From Methanolobus vulcani (GTDB lineage Archaea > Halobacteriota > Methanosarcinia > Methanosarcinales > Methanosarcinaceae), in contig NZ_VIAQ01000017.1 in NCBI RefSeq assembly GCF_006546655.1, forward strand, positions 62,001 through 126,000: a DNA stretch of 64,000 nucleotides, written 5' to 3'. The notes beneath the pieces are model-generated. The model made no database searches. It had not been told where the DNA came from and saw only the letters and a program-made list of their open reading frames with translations. Below, in pieces: positions 13,952-60,167 of the stretch. The position numbers and the translations under genes were made by a program. Positions within the stretch are counted from its first letter, which is position 1; the number at the start of each line of letters is the position of its first letter.

Positions 13952-14962
13952 TTAATCACACCAAATTATAATTGATGATGCGACAATCGCAAAGAACGCT
14001 GCCACAAGGATTATCCATGATGTGAGCTTGATGTCCTCTGATACCGGGTAAACAAAACCATTACCCAGTACATAGGTATTCGGCTTTTCCAGTTTTATTT
14101 TCAGAGCACCTGCAATGGAAGCCATTGGAAAACCTGAATTTGGAGATGGTGTTTTTAGCCCGTCTCTTATACCTGTTTTAAATGCTGTCCTGTAATCAGG
14201 AATTTTGATCTTATGATATACCAGACTCACCACAAGAGTTGCAGCTGACAGGAAAATCACAGACACACGCGCAGGTATCCAGTTGAGCACATCATCTAAC
14301 TTTGCAGAGAACCAGCCTACTTCACGATGACGTTCATCTGTGTAGCCTACCATGGAATCCAGGGTACTTGTAGCTTTGAAGACATACGCTGCTATTAGTC
14401 CGTAAGGTCCGAAACATGCGTAGAACAATAAAGGTGAAAGTATCCCGTCAACATAGTTCTCAGAAGTTGTCTCGATTATTGCTGAAGAGACCTGCCCTTC
14501 TTCCAGTTTTGATGTATTACGGCTCACATACATAGAGAGTTTCTGTCTTGCGCTGTCAAGTTTACCGGCATCAAGCTCAGATCTTACTTCGTTAGCTGCA
14601 CCGTAGAGACAGCGAATAGCAAATGTAGCCTTAAGGAAATAAGCAGCTACCAGATAACGAAGAACTGCCGGAATGGATTCAATGCCCATGAATAACATTA
14701 CAAGATAGGCGATAGTACACCCGAAAAGTATCGTGGTAAGACCAATGAATAACCCGTAAATCCTGCGATTGTTCGCAGGAATGTTCTTTTTGAAAAAACC
14801 TATCAACCTGCCCATCCAGACAACCGGATGGACTGAGAATGGAGGTTCACCAACCGCAATATCAAGAACATAGGCCAGAAGAAGCACTATCACCAGTTCA
14901 CTTGTATCTGGATATACCGGCACCGGCAGGATCATAGATTGCGCTCCATTACTTCCTTCCAT
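13952..14962 (-). CDS. cbiB: Adenosylcobinamide-phosphate synthase (CbiB)
   Basis: This 336-residue membrane protein condenses adenosylcobyric acid with (R)-1-amino-2-propanol phosphate. Family features are AYVLDIAVGEPPFSVHPVVWMGRLI, the ETTSENYVDGILSPLLF segment, and STLDSMVGYTDERHREVGWFSAKLDD. Four to five hydrophobic stretches are visible. It overlaps cobD1 by 31 bases, so cobD1, which makes the aminopropanol phosphate partner, and cbiB are likely translated together. Confidence 0.93.
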   Translation of the reverse strand: MEGSNGAQSMILPVPVYPDTSELVIVLLLAYVLDIAVGEPPFSVHPVVWMGRLIGFFKKNIPANNRRIYGLFIGLTTILFGCTIAYLVMLFMGIESIPAVLRYLVAAYFLKATFAIRCLYGAANEVRSELDAGKLDSARQKLSMYVSRNTSKLEEGQVSSAIIETTSENYVDGILSPLLFYACFGPYGLIAAYVFKATSTLDSMVGYTDERHREVGWFSAKLDDVLNWIPARVSVIFLSAATLVVSLVYHKIKIPDYRTAFKTGIRDGLKTPSPNSGFPMASIAGALKIKLEKPNTYVLGNGFVYPVSEDIKLTSWIILVAAFFAIVASSIIIWCD

Positions 14963-16434
14963 GCTTTTCTGATACTTTCATCGCTGAGACCTTCAGAAAC
15001 AAAGATGGACAATAAGTCATCGACTATCTTTTCCTCATGGACAATAGTACAGTTCAGACAGCTCCATATCTGACCACCACTTGAGCTTTCTATCCAGTTG
15101 CCACCTGTGCGGCTGTCCTCACAAGGATAGAACGGACAGAAGCAGAAAGTACAGTCCTGCTCTTCAAAATGACAGGGATAATAGTCACAATCAATATTGC
15201 TTCCCTTACGGCCGCATTCTGCAGCAGCCTTTATATTTTCCCGAAGCTGTATCTCAGCCTGTTCCCTACCCCATTCATAGATTACCTGACGGATCGTATC
15301 TGCAATACGTTCATTCTCCTCTCTTGTACGTATTGCCACTCTTATGTGATTCTTACCGTTATTCTGGAAAGACTCGCAATCACGTATCAGTACACCATGA
15401 GATGCCATTCTTTCTGCAAGTTCTGATGAATTGAGTGAGAGATCAGTAATATCAACATAAATATAATTAACACAACTCTCTGCAGGTTTGAACCCTCTAC
15501 GAGAGAGTTTAGTCATAAGGAACTTACGTTCCTGTTCTATGAAAGCCCTTGAATCAAGAAGGTATTTGCTGTTCACACCACCTTTCATGCTAAGCAGGGC
15601 AGTTGCAATGGTATCTGAAATACATCCCATGTTCCATGAAAGTCTTGCATTGTTAAGCACACATGCAAATTTAGAAGAAGCAACTCCAAAACCCATTCTG
15701 ATTCCAGGAATTGCAAATGATTTTGTTAAAGAACGCTGGATGAAAAGATAATCATTATTTTCTACAAGATAAGCAACACTCTGCTCCGGTTCTGCCAGTT
15801 CAATGTAAGCCTCATCTACAAAGAGTATAGTCTTTTGGGCTGCACATTGTTCTGCAAGCTTTTCCATCATTTCTTTGTCAAATAGTTTTCCAGTTGGGTT
15901 ATTGGGATTGCATACAAAGATAATTTTAGCTTCAGCAAGAATCTCATCCTCAAGGTCGAAGATATCATCCTGCTCGATGTACTTAATTTTGGCACCCATG
16001 ACACTGCACTGCAATTCATATTCACTGAAAGTGGGTCTTGGAATTAGTACAACATCGCCTTCAGCTACAACACACTCTGCCACCAGTCGTATGATCTCAG
16101 TTGAACCGTTTCCGGGAATGATATTCTCATATGTCATTCCCATTCCCACAAATTCTGCTGCAGCCGTACGGTACTCAAGATAGCGGTTGTCCGGATACTG
16201 CTCAAGTTTTTCAAGCCCTTTACTAAGAAGCTCCTGCAGATCCAGCTCCGGGTCTGGCTGCTCAAAAGGAGTTCCTAATGGATTAAGACTTGCACTTGCA
16301 TCAAGGATATCAGATTCTGGAATGCCGTATTTCTGGGAACTTTTTCTTATCAGCCCACCATGAACGCATGGATCAAGGCTTAGAAGATATTTCTTTACCG
16401 GAAGAGGTGGTCTTTGGTCTGTCACAATAATCAA
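14932..16434 (-). CDS. cobD: L-threonine-O-3-phosphate decarboxylase with Cys-rich C-terminal domain (CobD)
   Basis: The N-terminal ~390 residues of this 500-residue protein are a fold-type I PLP enzyme like HisC/CobD: NPLGTPF, IIPGNGSTEIIRL, CNPNNPTGKLF, FVDEAYIELAEP and the PLP lysine K238 in RSLTKSFAIPGIRMGF. It should make (R)-1-amino-2-propanol phosphate for CbiB. The last ~90 residues are Cys-rich (CDYYPCHFEEQDCTFCFCPFYPC, then SCLNC). A comparable C-terminal extension in Methanosarcina mazei CobD has been linked to an additional L-threonine kinase activity, as I recall it. All active-site elements look intact here, unlike the two paralogs in this window. Confidence 0.92.
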   Translation of the reverse strand: MIIVTDQRPPLPVKKYLLSLDPCVHGGLIRKSSQKYGIPESDILDASASLNPLGTPFEQPDPELDLQELLSKGLEKLEQYPDNRYLEYRTAAAEFVGMGMTYENIIPGNGSTEIIRLVAECVVAEGDVVLIPRPTFSEYELQCSVMGAKIKYIEQDDIFDLEDEILAEAKIIFVCNPNNPTGKLFDKEMMEKLAEQCAAQKTILFVDEAYIELAEPEQSVAYLVENNDYLFIQRSLTKSFAIPGIRMGFGVASSKFACVLNNARLSWNMGCISDTIATALLSMKGGVNSKYLLDSRAFIEQERKFLMTKLSRRGFKPAESCVNYIYVDITDLSLNSSELAERMASHGVLIRDCESFQNNGKNHIRVAIRTREENERIADTIRQVIYEWGREQAEIQLRENIKAAAECGRKGSNIDCDYYPCHFEEQDCTFCFCPFYPCEDSRTGGNWIESSSGGQIWSCLNCTIVHEEKIVDDLLSIFVSEGLSDESIRKAWKEVMERNL

Positions 16435-16486: not shown

Positions 16487-18001
16487 TCAAAGCAGAGGCA
16501 CAATGATTTCCTTCCATGCTCTCCTTATATTATCATCAGTGTCTCCGTCTGCCATGAGTGCATCAAGCACCATTTTGGCGACCTTTGGTCTGTGCAATAT
16601 AGTACAATGTTCGCAGCTCCACACATTCCCTCCGGTGGAACTTTCGATCCATTTTCCTCCTGTACGCTCATCCTCACATGCATAGAAAGGACAGAAACAG
16701 AAAGTGCAATCCTGTCCTGTAAAATGACAGGGATAATATTCACAAGTACCACGGCCGGCAGAGGAACTACCGCCATGCTCTATGGTCTCTTCAAGTTTTT
16801 CCCTTGCATCTTCCCTGCTGGTTTCTGCAAAGACGGTATCAAGGGTATGTATTAGTTTCTCAAAATCATCTCTTGATCGGATTGATAGTCTCACATATCG
16901 TTTGTTTCCGTCAAAGAAATCACTGCATTCCCGTATCAATATACCATGCATAGCCAGCCCTTCACTGAGTCTGGCTGAATCAAGAAATAGATCTTTCACG
17001 TCAATAAGTATATAATTAGTACTGCTTTCAACCGGATCAAAACCATAAATCCCTGAAAAGCGCTTGATTATGTATTTCCTTTCATTTTTAATGAACTTAC
17101 GGGAACTAGTTAAGTACTCACTGTGAGGACCACCTTCCATACTCAGGAAAGCTAAACCTATGGCTTCATCTGTCACACCAATATTCCATGAAAGACGTGC
17201 AGAATTGAGCATATTTGCAAGAGAAAGGGAAGCAATACCATATGCCAGTCTTATACCTGGCATTGCCGTGATATTGGATATGGATCTTATTACAAAGAGA
17301 TGATCATTATCCAATGTCAGACCTACAATACTCATATCAGGATCAGCCAGTTCAATTGCTGATTCGTCAACAATAAGCAGGGTACCATGTTCAGCACATT
17401 TTTGTGCAAAATCAGAAAGATTATCTTTTGGAATGAGCTGGCCGGTCGGATTGTTAGGATTTCCGATTACAATGACCTTTGCCCTGTCCAGTGTCATTTT
17501 TGGAAGATGTAATAATTCATCTGTAGTAAAGGAATGAATACGTGCTCCGAAAACTTCTGCTATATGACGATATTCACCGGATGATGGTGAAGTGGTAATT
17601 ACAATATCCTCTTCATTGACAACGGTTTCCATGATCAGACGCAGAAGCTCACATGTACCGTTCCCTGGAATGATATTATCCGCAGATATGTTATGACCTA
17701 CATAAGAGGCAGCAGCCTTTCTGAGTTCAAGATACCTGTTATCAGGATACTGATCGATCCTTTCTGTGGATCTCAAAACAGTTTGATTCAGATCAAGGTT
17801 ACTTGCCGGAAAATTGAATGGTGTGCCAAGTGGATTCGTGTTTGAAGTGAAATCAAGAATATCTGATTCTGCTTTATTAAATCTCATAGGCAGCTCACGA
17901 GTCCTTCCGACATGATTTCTTGCTTGCAGTGCAAGTAAATAATGCTTCAAATGAAGTGGAAAATTTTTTCGGTACACACTTATCAACAATTGGTTACGCA
18001 C
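16487..18001 (-). CDS. CobD paralog lacking the PLP lysine, Cys-rich C-terminus retained
   Basis: This 504-residue protein is clearly homologous to the downstream CobD throughout: NPLGTPF, IIPGNGTCELLRL, GNPNNPTGQLI, VDESAIELADP and a C-terminal CEYYPCHFTGQDCTFCFCPF motif. At the PLP-lysine position the sequence is RSISNITAMPGIRL, so Lys is replaced by Asn243. The stacking Tyr of VDEAY is also changed to Ala. It is therefore unlikely to be a decarboxylase. It may keep the activity of the Cys-rich tail (proposed threonine kinase) or act as a partner of CobD. A GTG start at 18001 is taken because the N-terminal KHYLLAL aligns with CobD's KKYLLSL. It is first in the cob operon. Confidence 0.8.
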   Translation of the reverse strand: MRNQLLISVYRKNFPLHLKHYLLALQARNHVGRTRELPMRFNKAESDILDFTSNTNPLGTPFNFPASNLDLNQTVLRSTERIDQYPDNRYLELRKAAASYVGHNISADNIIPGNGTCELLRLIMETVVNEEDIVITTSPSSGEYRHIAEVFGARIHSFTTDELLHLPKMTLDRAKVIVIGNPNNPTGQLIPKDNLSDFAQKCAEHGTLLIVDESAIELADPDMSIVGLTLDNDHLFVIRSISNITAMPGIRLAYGIASLSLANMLNSARLSWNIGVTDEAIGLAFLSMEGGPHSEYLTSSRKFIKNERKYIIKRFSGIYGFDPVESSTNYILIDVKDLFLDSARLSEGLAMHGILIRECSDFFDGNKRYVRLSIRSRDDFEKLIHTLDTVFAETSREDAREKLEETIEHGGSSSAGRGTCEYYPCHFTGQDCTFCFCPFYACEDERTGGKWIESSTGGNVWSCEHCTILHRPKVAKMVLDALMADGDTDDNIRRAWKEIIVPLL

Positions 18002-58658: not shown

Positions 58659-60167
58659 GTGTTACTAAATAATAGCAGCTTTAATAGTAGGCAATTAAAA
58701 CGGTACTTAATGAAAATGAACCATGCAAACAATATATCGGAAAACTCCCTTAACAACAAAACCCTTTCAGACATATCCCGGCAATTCAACATTGACAAGA
58801 ACTGCCTGATGGAGCTTCGGGGTCGTTCAAATCCTTTTGGCAGTCCATTTGAACATGGTGAACTATATATTGCCATACAAAACATCGATTCTCATAAGCA
58901 AACGCAAGAATGCTCTGCATCCGATTCACAGCTTGAATTCAAAAGAGCGGCAGTTTCCTTTGTAGATATGGTAATCAAGACTGAAAATATACTTCCTGTT
59001 ATCGGAAAAAATCTATGGGGAAGGGTCGTTGAGACCTTACTGGATAAAGAAGAAAAGATATTAGTTCCTCACTCATGTTCTCCTGAATTCACGTACAATA
59101 TAAATGAAAATCTCATAATGAATGATCATCAGGACAACGGATGCCTGAAAGATATACCGGAAAAATCCCTGGATAAAGCTGGAATTGTACTGATAGCCAA
59201 TCCTGCTCATCTGAGCGGTGCTTTGCTGTGTTCTGACGATATAATATATCTTGCAGGGCGTTGCAGGGAAAAAGGAACTTTACTTTTTGTTGATGAAACA
59301 TTGATAGAATTAACCGACCCGTACCAGAGCGTTGCATCAATTGTCCGGGAAAATGATAATGTCATTATCCAGCGTTCAATATCCAATACATTTGCTATTT
59401 CAGACCATGATGTGTCTTTTGCGATAGCTTCGGAAAAAATGATAGAGAAACTCAGCCACTCATCTGCAGAAAACGATACAGACATACTGCCGTTATCCAT
59501 TGGAACTTCTTTGATGGAAATGCAGGGCGGAGGTAATAGCTCTTATCTGGAAGATTCCAGAAATTTTATCAAAGAACAGCGAAAATACCTTACAGACCTG
59601 TTCTCAAGCCGCGGTTACGTACCGGAAAAAAGCGATTCCAGCTATATCCTTGTCAAGCTGAACTTTTTAATGGGACTGGAAGAACTTACGCAAAGACTTG
59701 CATCACACGGAGTGTTGATACTGGATTGCCGCTCGTTCTACATCCCTGATGAAGATTATGCAAGAGTAGCAGTTACTACCAAAAGCAATGTTGATAATTT
59801 CGAGGAGATATTCGGCATCGTTCTTAGCGAATGGGCAAGAGACCTCGCTAAAGCAAAACTCGAAGAAACGCTGAATTCAGGTAAACTTATGGGAAGAAAT
59901 ACAGAATGCCCATATTACCCCTGTCACTTCCCCGGCCAGGACTGCACTTTCTGCTATTGCCCCTTCAACCCGTGCAAAAACGAGAAGACTGGAGGAGAAT
60001 GGATCACCGGTTCAAAAGGAAGAAAAGGATGGAGCTGCATGAACTGTCGTATAGTCCACGAACCTGAAATTGCACAGGAGATTCTGGACGCACTTCTGGA
60101 AGATAATGATCTGGAAACAAACAAAAAAGCCGCCTGGAAAAATGTGATCGAATCACGTCTTTTGTGA
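58659..60167 (+). CDS. Divergent CobD-like protein without PLP site, Cys-rich C-terminus intact
   Basis: The 502 residues align with the two CobD proteins of the cob operon, but the PLP site is eroded. RSISNTFAISDHD has Asn243 in place of the lysine, NPNNPTG has become NPAHLSG, and the C-terminal substrate Arg region reads DYARVAVTTKS instead of a RxxIR form. Yet the C-terminal Cys-rich domain is kept almost unchanged: CPYYPCHFPGQDCTFCYCPFNPC and SCMNCRIVHE, then a helical end. It lies away from the cob genes, after rnhB. It may work through the Cys domain alone or as a sensor. A GTG start is assumed because the RQLKRYL segment aligns with CobD. Confidence 0.75.
   Translation: MLLNNSSFNSRQLKRYLMKMNHANNISENSLNNKTLSDISRQFNIDKNCLMELRGRSNPFGSPFEHGELYIAIQNIDSHKQTQECSASDSQLEFKRAAVSFVDMVIKTENILPVIGKNLWGRVVETLLDKEEKILVPHSCSPEFTYNINENLIMNDHQDNGCLKDIPEKSLDKAGIVLIANPAHLSGALLCSDDIIYLAGRCREKGTLLFVDETLIELTDPYQSVASIVRENDNVIIQRSISNTFAISDHDVSFAIASEKMIEKLSHSSAENDTDILPLSIGTSLMEMQGGGNSSYLEDSRNFIKEQRKYLTDLFSSRGYVPEKSDSSYILVKLNFLMGLEELTQRLASHGVLILDCRSFYIPDEDYARVAVTTKSNVDNFEEIFGIVLSEWARDLAKAKLEETLNSGKLMGRNTECPYYPCHFPGQDCTFCYCPFNPCKNEKTGGEWITGSKGRKGWSCMNCRIVHEPEIAQEILDALLEDNDLETNKKAAWKNVIESRLL

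Follow-up and report, generated by a model that had tools for sequence, protein, structure and literature searches.

We describe a lysine-less paralog of the vitamin B12-pathway enzyme CobD, the third copy in this methanogen, named CobD3, which is encoded outside the cob operon and which, as judged from its sequence, has lost most of the residues needed for PLP chemistry. Its gene, recognized as an ORF and by homology, occupies 58659..60167 on the forward strand of the window (the whole 64-kb stretch of DNA analyzed here). CobD3 has the archaeal CobD-plus-tail architecture, with a CobD/HisC-type core under selection, an intact Cys/His tail and an isolated gene. The reading that we favor, with about even confidence, is that CobD3 is a neofunctionalized pseudoenzyme whose scaffold core and tail would act as a regulator or adaptor by binding proteins of the cobamide pathway. 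This reading is drawn from active-site replacements in both known orthologs, retention of the tail ligands, selection over the whole frame and an intact predicted fold, and also from a similar trend in a second copy (CobD2), the existence of the tail as a stand-alone gene and the location of the other ortholog, from genome G069, in a salvage cluster. CobD3 is the extreme member of a larger group of catalytically dead CobD copies, among which CobD2 may be the more important case.

Results

The cobD3 frame is intact and encodes 502 amino acids counted from the GTG at 58659; translation may instead begin at an in-frame ATG at 58710, and AlphaFold models residues 1-27 with low confidence. A first-pass annotation of this DNA had placed a third CobD-like copy outside the cob operon, and this is where we find it, about 40 kb from the operon that contains CobD1 and CobD2. 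The PLP-fold core (58770..59828, forward strand; residues 38-390) is delimited by Pfam family PF00155, with an aminotransferase class I/II match at residues 86-381, and by a fold match to the CobD structure 1lc5. The predicted model of this core, with a mean pLDDT of 83 and a TM-score of 0.83 (on the target) against 1lc5, is that of a fold-type I PLP protein. The tail (59907..60065, forward strand; residues 417-469) carries 8 Cys and 2 His that are invariant and belongs to the Cys-rich, zinc-finger-like family PF04071, which scores 83.8 bits over residues 412-482 against a cut-off of 27; a C-terminal PF04071 domain with all of its invariant Cys and His residues is the archaeal MM2060-type architecture. 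The best NCBIfam match of CobD3 is the CobD family TIGR01140, but at 92.2 bits it falls under the equivalog cut-off of 290.55 bits. A search of the 64-kb window for RNA elements gave no Rfam match at the gathering score.

Active-site positions were mapped onto Salmonella enterica CobD, with numbering through the 1lc5 alignment and with residue roles after the published structures. H8, Y56, N157, D185, S213, K216, R224, R323 and R337 are essentially invariant among 73 lysine-bearing homologs. At these positions CobD3 and its ortholog, respectively, have N and N for H8, A and S for Y56, H and F for N157, N and D for K216, D and Q for R224, and L and M for R323; only D185, S213 and the R337 equivalent are kept by both. 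The D185 equivalent is the Asp that faces PLP N1, R224 binds the PLP phosphate and R337 is the substrate Arg. In the homolog alignments, Asn243 (59385..59387) stands at the site of the PLP lysine, NPAHLSG (59199..59219) is found where an alignment of 107 homologs places the NPNNPTG loop, and SDHD (59400..59411) replaces PGIR, with loss of the Arg224 equivalent; Arg369 (59763..59765), the equivalent of R337, lies in an invariant column of a 64-row alignment (all on the forward strand). The first-pass annotation had reported the lysine, the loop and the Arg region as missing. The first two are indeed gone; of the arginines that go with K216 and NPNNPTG in a TIGR01140-type site, R224 and R323 are replaced, whereas R337 is still present. 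With K216, N157, R224, R323 and other residues replaced, neither covalent PLP binding nor decarboxylation of L-Thr-P by CobD3 is to be expected.

The tail presents a different picture. An alignment of 37 tails, which include separate small ORFs located just 3' of cobD in genomes from a different order of the class, contains 14 invariant columns (8 Cys, 2 His, Q, P, F and W), and CobD3 matches 14/14. Of the positions that are at least 95% conserved where the PLP lysine is present, the two CobD3 copies both retain 23/25 in the tail versus 31/77 in the core (Fisher P = 5e-6), in agreement with the earlier description of a Cys-rich C-terminal motif kept nearly residue for residue. The constraint on the tail is independent of PLP catalysis. 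The separate ORFs are free-standing PF04071 genes just downstream of, and often overlapping, a tail-less cobD (L095-L102, f7 genomes; for example, L095:5242-5514 and L102:4835-5116), and the neighboring CobD bears the lysine. The presence of the tail as an ORF of its own after cobD in another order indicates that it can stand alone. A PDB fold search with the tail gave no match at an E value of ≤0.001 and hence no structural relative to hint at its mode of action, which weighs against the favored reading; the weak sequence matches were to designed proteins, in the first part of the alignment, at the linker, and not over the whole Cys motif.

We infer that the CobD3 tail binds metal because metallocentres are reported for the tail of Methanosarcina mazei CobD, at least in the citation of Tavares et al. 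2019 given in PMC9986279. This report and the invariance of 8 Cys and 2 His would also suit an iron or zinc store or carrier, in which the core merely holds the tail. We consider such a role unlikely, as a carrier would not require a core of 390 residues that is still 52% identical between genera.

Comparisons of CobD3 are between two sequences, one from the window genome (G000) and one from a Methanomethylovorans MAG (G069; contig matching JACIVZ010000019.1), which are 56% identical. Between these genomes, core and tail identities are 64.6 and 71.7% for CobD1, 41.0 and 79.2% for CobD2 and 52.3 and 83.0% for CobD3. With a 53-residue tail, the core/tail distance ratio is 1.34 for CobD1 (95% interval, 0.77-2.63), 4.42 for CobD2 (2.51-9.7) and 3.83 for CobD3 (2.05-9.4), and with an 86-residue tail the ratios are 0.79, 3.08 and 1.91, respectively. 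Bootstraps over the columns of this one genome pair, with columns treated as independent, gave a CobD3 ratio at or below that of CobD1 in 1.1% of cases for the 53-residue tail and 0.25% for the 86-residue tail. As the CobD3 ratio lies above that of CobD1, divergence is unequal between the two parts, with the tail evolving more slowly (ratios of 1.9-3.8 for CobD3 against 0.8-1.3 for CobD1). The first-pass annotation had offered this ratio as a check on its view of the tail, and had named frameshifts in relatives and equal divergence of both parts as evidence to the contrary; there are no frameshifts, the ortholog frame being open in the second genus, and the divergence is not equal. For the CobD3 pair, NG86 estimates were 0.353 for dN and 2.96 for dS, and the dN/dS of about 0.12-0.14 is indicative only since dS is saturated.

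The same annotation held that selection had kept the tail while the PLP site decayed. Our results agree that the tail is favored and that the PLP site is lost, but not that erosion of the core is ongoing. A core that is 52% identical between genera, with a low dN/dS and a predicted CobD fold, must also be selected, in a noncatalytic capacity, and "decay" is too strong a word for a core under purifying selection. CobD3 has neither frameshifts nor stop codons, and constraint is not relaxed across its frame; as this applies in both genera, we rejected the possibility that it is a pseudogene.

Loss of the PLP lysine extends to the cob operon itself, a point absent from the first-pass annotation. 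CobD1 (14932..16434, reverse strand) bears the lysine and, at 291.5 bits, exceeds the TIGR01140 cut-off; directly upstream is CobD2 (16487..18001, reverse strand), a tandem copy that has Asn in place of the lysine and otherwise retains the site, along with the tail (221.0 bits). The neighbors of this pair are cbiB, cobZ, cobS and cobY. A lysine-less tandem CobD2 occurs in every genome of the window's genus (27/27), mostly with Asn at the lysine site and in three cases with Asp, Gly or Arg, and in all six Methanomethylovorans genomes, with His. Three lysine-less copies that were checked in genus g10 (L058:4505-5995, L065:5009-6499 and L206:1006-2496) have Asp, Asn or Tyr and are located away from the CobD1 of their own genome. 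The CobD2 proteins of genera g1 and g11 form a single clade, whereas the g10 copies group with lysine-bearing copies; a joint clade was rejected (AU P = 1.2e-4), which indicates that the PLP lysine was lost at least twice, with the tail kept each time. Over 190 genome pairs, tail divergence was 0.236 for CobD2 versus 0.244 for CobD1, while core divergence was 0.742 versus 0.351, twice as fast in CobD2. Two further observations concern copy number. In G024 (genus g7), a second CobD is split over two overlapping frames (L041:6403-7910), which may represent a frameshifted CobD2 or an assembly error. Genus g9 has two nearly identical lysine-bearing copies in separate places (L054/L055 in G029; L042/L043 in G030).

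Fold-type I PLP enzymes form their active sites at the dimer interface, and a lysine-less copy could pair with CobD1 and complete or tune its active site in trans, in the manner of LCB1/SPT1 with LCB2/SPT2. CobD2 would fit this proposal well. The tyrosine of its YPDN motif is kept throughout the genus (27/27 genomes), and all 15 tabulated CobD2 proteins of the genus keep H8, R224, R323 and R337, a pattern that, at the level of sequence, would suit either a heterodimer subunit or a kinase-only enzyme. Like CobD2, CobD3 shares its genome with a lysine-bearing paralog, CobD1, but, where CobD2 keeps the tyrosine, CobD3 lacks the equivalent of Tyr56, the residue donated to the PLP phosphate of the partner in HisC-type enzymes. 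Since H8 and R323 are lost as well, completion of an active site in trans by CobD3 is unlikely; overall, we assign a low probability to such a heterodimer, although a regulatory pairing of CobD3 with CobD1 is possible. A remnant L-threonine kinase, that is, a PLP-less copy of the reportedly bifunctional MM2060-type CobD that retains the kinase activity alone, seems to us marginally less probable again. A kinase activity has been published for the M. mazei enzyme, according to the mention of Tavares et al. 2018 in PMC9986279, but around the substrate site CobD3 lacks H8, N157 and R323. As CobD2 keeps the substrate-binding residues, the kinase proposal fits CobD2 better than CobD3.

CobD3 is rare, being present in 2/238 genomes of the class. 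Searches of the class (238 genomes), the phylum (393 genomes) and the genome contigs detected no CobD3 besides that of G069, and the 26 remaining genomes of the window's genus had no close match anywhere. Plasmids yielded nothing beyond generic CobD similarity, the viral contigs searched had no match, and no second copy was seen at haloarchaeal plasmid cobD loci. In 14 congeneric genomes, including the closest relatives, a single locus contains rnhB and purQ without cobD3 between them, with a gap of 57-339 bp in five of these relatives; in the window this gap contains cobD3. The simplest reading is probably a recent insertion, with differential loss as a possible alternative. No convincing target-site duplication or terminal inverted repeats were found in the flanks of the insert. 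The rnhB-purQ gaps of L124, L125 and L126, from close relatives, contain GC-rich, palindrome-like sequences, such as ACGCCGAAGGCGGCACATT, which may represent a small mobile repeat where CobD3 is located in the window. A clade of CobD2 and CobD3 is compatible with the tree (AU P = 0.35), in which the CobD3 branch is long.

This sporadic distribution, with absence from the rest of the genus and an empty gap in relatives, is what might be seen with a nonfunctional, decaying duplicate. We regard that explanation as very improbable, given that a frame of more than 480 codons is open in two genera with a low dN/dS, that all tail ligands are kept and that the same positions are replaced in both CobD3 copies.

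In G069, cobD3 has nitrogenase-like genes on one side and cbiZ-btuFCD, a cluster for corrinoid salvage, on the other; all of these genes and one for a large surface protein share the same strand (L037:350-8886 and L190:2265-5761). This neighborhood would tie CobD3 to corrinoid salvage, but as a single observation it is only suggestive. No cobamide genes adjoin cobD3 in the window, which weighs against the favored reading; in G000, cbiZ occurs at two other loci, one of them with btuFCD. In G061 (L192), cbiZ-btuFCD is followed by nitrogenase-like genes and, as judged by eye, a possible CbiX/CbiK-like chelatase gene. The gene orf274, located beside the G069 copy, was rejected as a companion of CobD3, being absent from G000 and sporadic elsewhere.

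Discussion

Our results suggest that the tail of CobD3 probably has a job independent of the original enzyme reaction. The first-pass annotation had proposed an independent function for this domain; the sequence data are consistent with that proposal, but they would be better explained by a function in which scaffold and tail take part together. In the favored pseudoenzyme reading, the core would now provide scaffolding or docking, and the tail, loaded with metal, would be a metal- or redox-responsive regulatory or adaptor element. Such a protein may act in the aminopropanol/nucleotide-loop branch of cobamide synthesis or in salvage, by binding CobD1, CobD2, CbiB or CbiZ and without catalysis.

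Cobamides drive methylotrophic methanogenesis. A broader and more tentative interpretation, to which we give well below even weight, is that methylotrophic Methanosarcinaceae have more than once converted CobD copies into pseudoenzymes that lack the lysine and carry the metal-binding regulatory tail. These would add a metal- or redox-gated layer of control to the synthesis of cobamide side chains and to salvage, and CobD3 would be their free-standing, horizontally moving form. Copies with a dead site and a conserved tail are natural separation-of-function variants; one genome carries two of them, and they arose separately in at least two lineages. With such copies, regulation, metal carriage and support of the reported threonine kinase activity can be tested directly as roles of the tail.

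Among known systems, M. mazei MM2060 (L-Thr kinase/L-Thr-P decarboxylase) has the two-domain layout, PF04071 Cys/His pattern and fold in common with CobD3; unlike MM2060-type enzymes, CobD3 has no PLP lysine, NPNNPTG loop or R224 and R323 equivalents and is encoded outside the cob operon. CobD2 of the same genus is likewise lysine-less, with a conserved tail and a core that diverges faster than the tail, but it resides in the cob operon of 27/27 genomes and keeps most of the other site residues, whereas the CobD3 gene is isolated and rare and its product much more altered. Salmonella enterica CobD (1lc5, 1lc7, 1lc8 and 1lkc) resembles CobD3 in its PLP-fold core, by the TM-score of the predicted model, but has an active PLP lysine and no Cys-rich tail. 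SPT1/LCB1 is also a fold-type I PLP protein that lacks the PLP lysine and is selected beside a lysine-bearing paralog (PMC6148460); CobD3 differs in its additional putative metal tail and in the absence of the trans-donated Tyr, and its partnership with CobD1 is hypothetical. Finally, the free-standing PF04071 proteins share the invariant Cys/His pattern of the CobD3 tail and adjoin cobD but, unlike CobD3, they are small, have no PLP-fold core and are encoded beside a lysine-bearing CobD.
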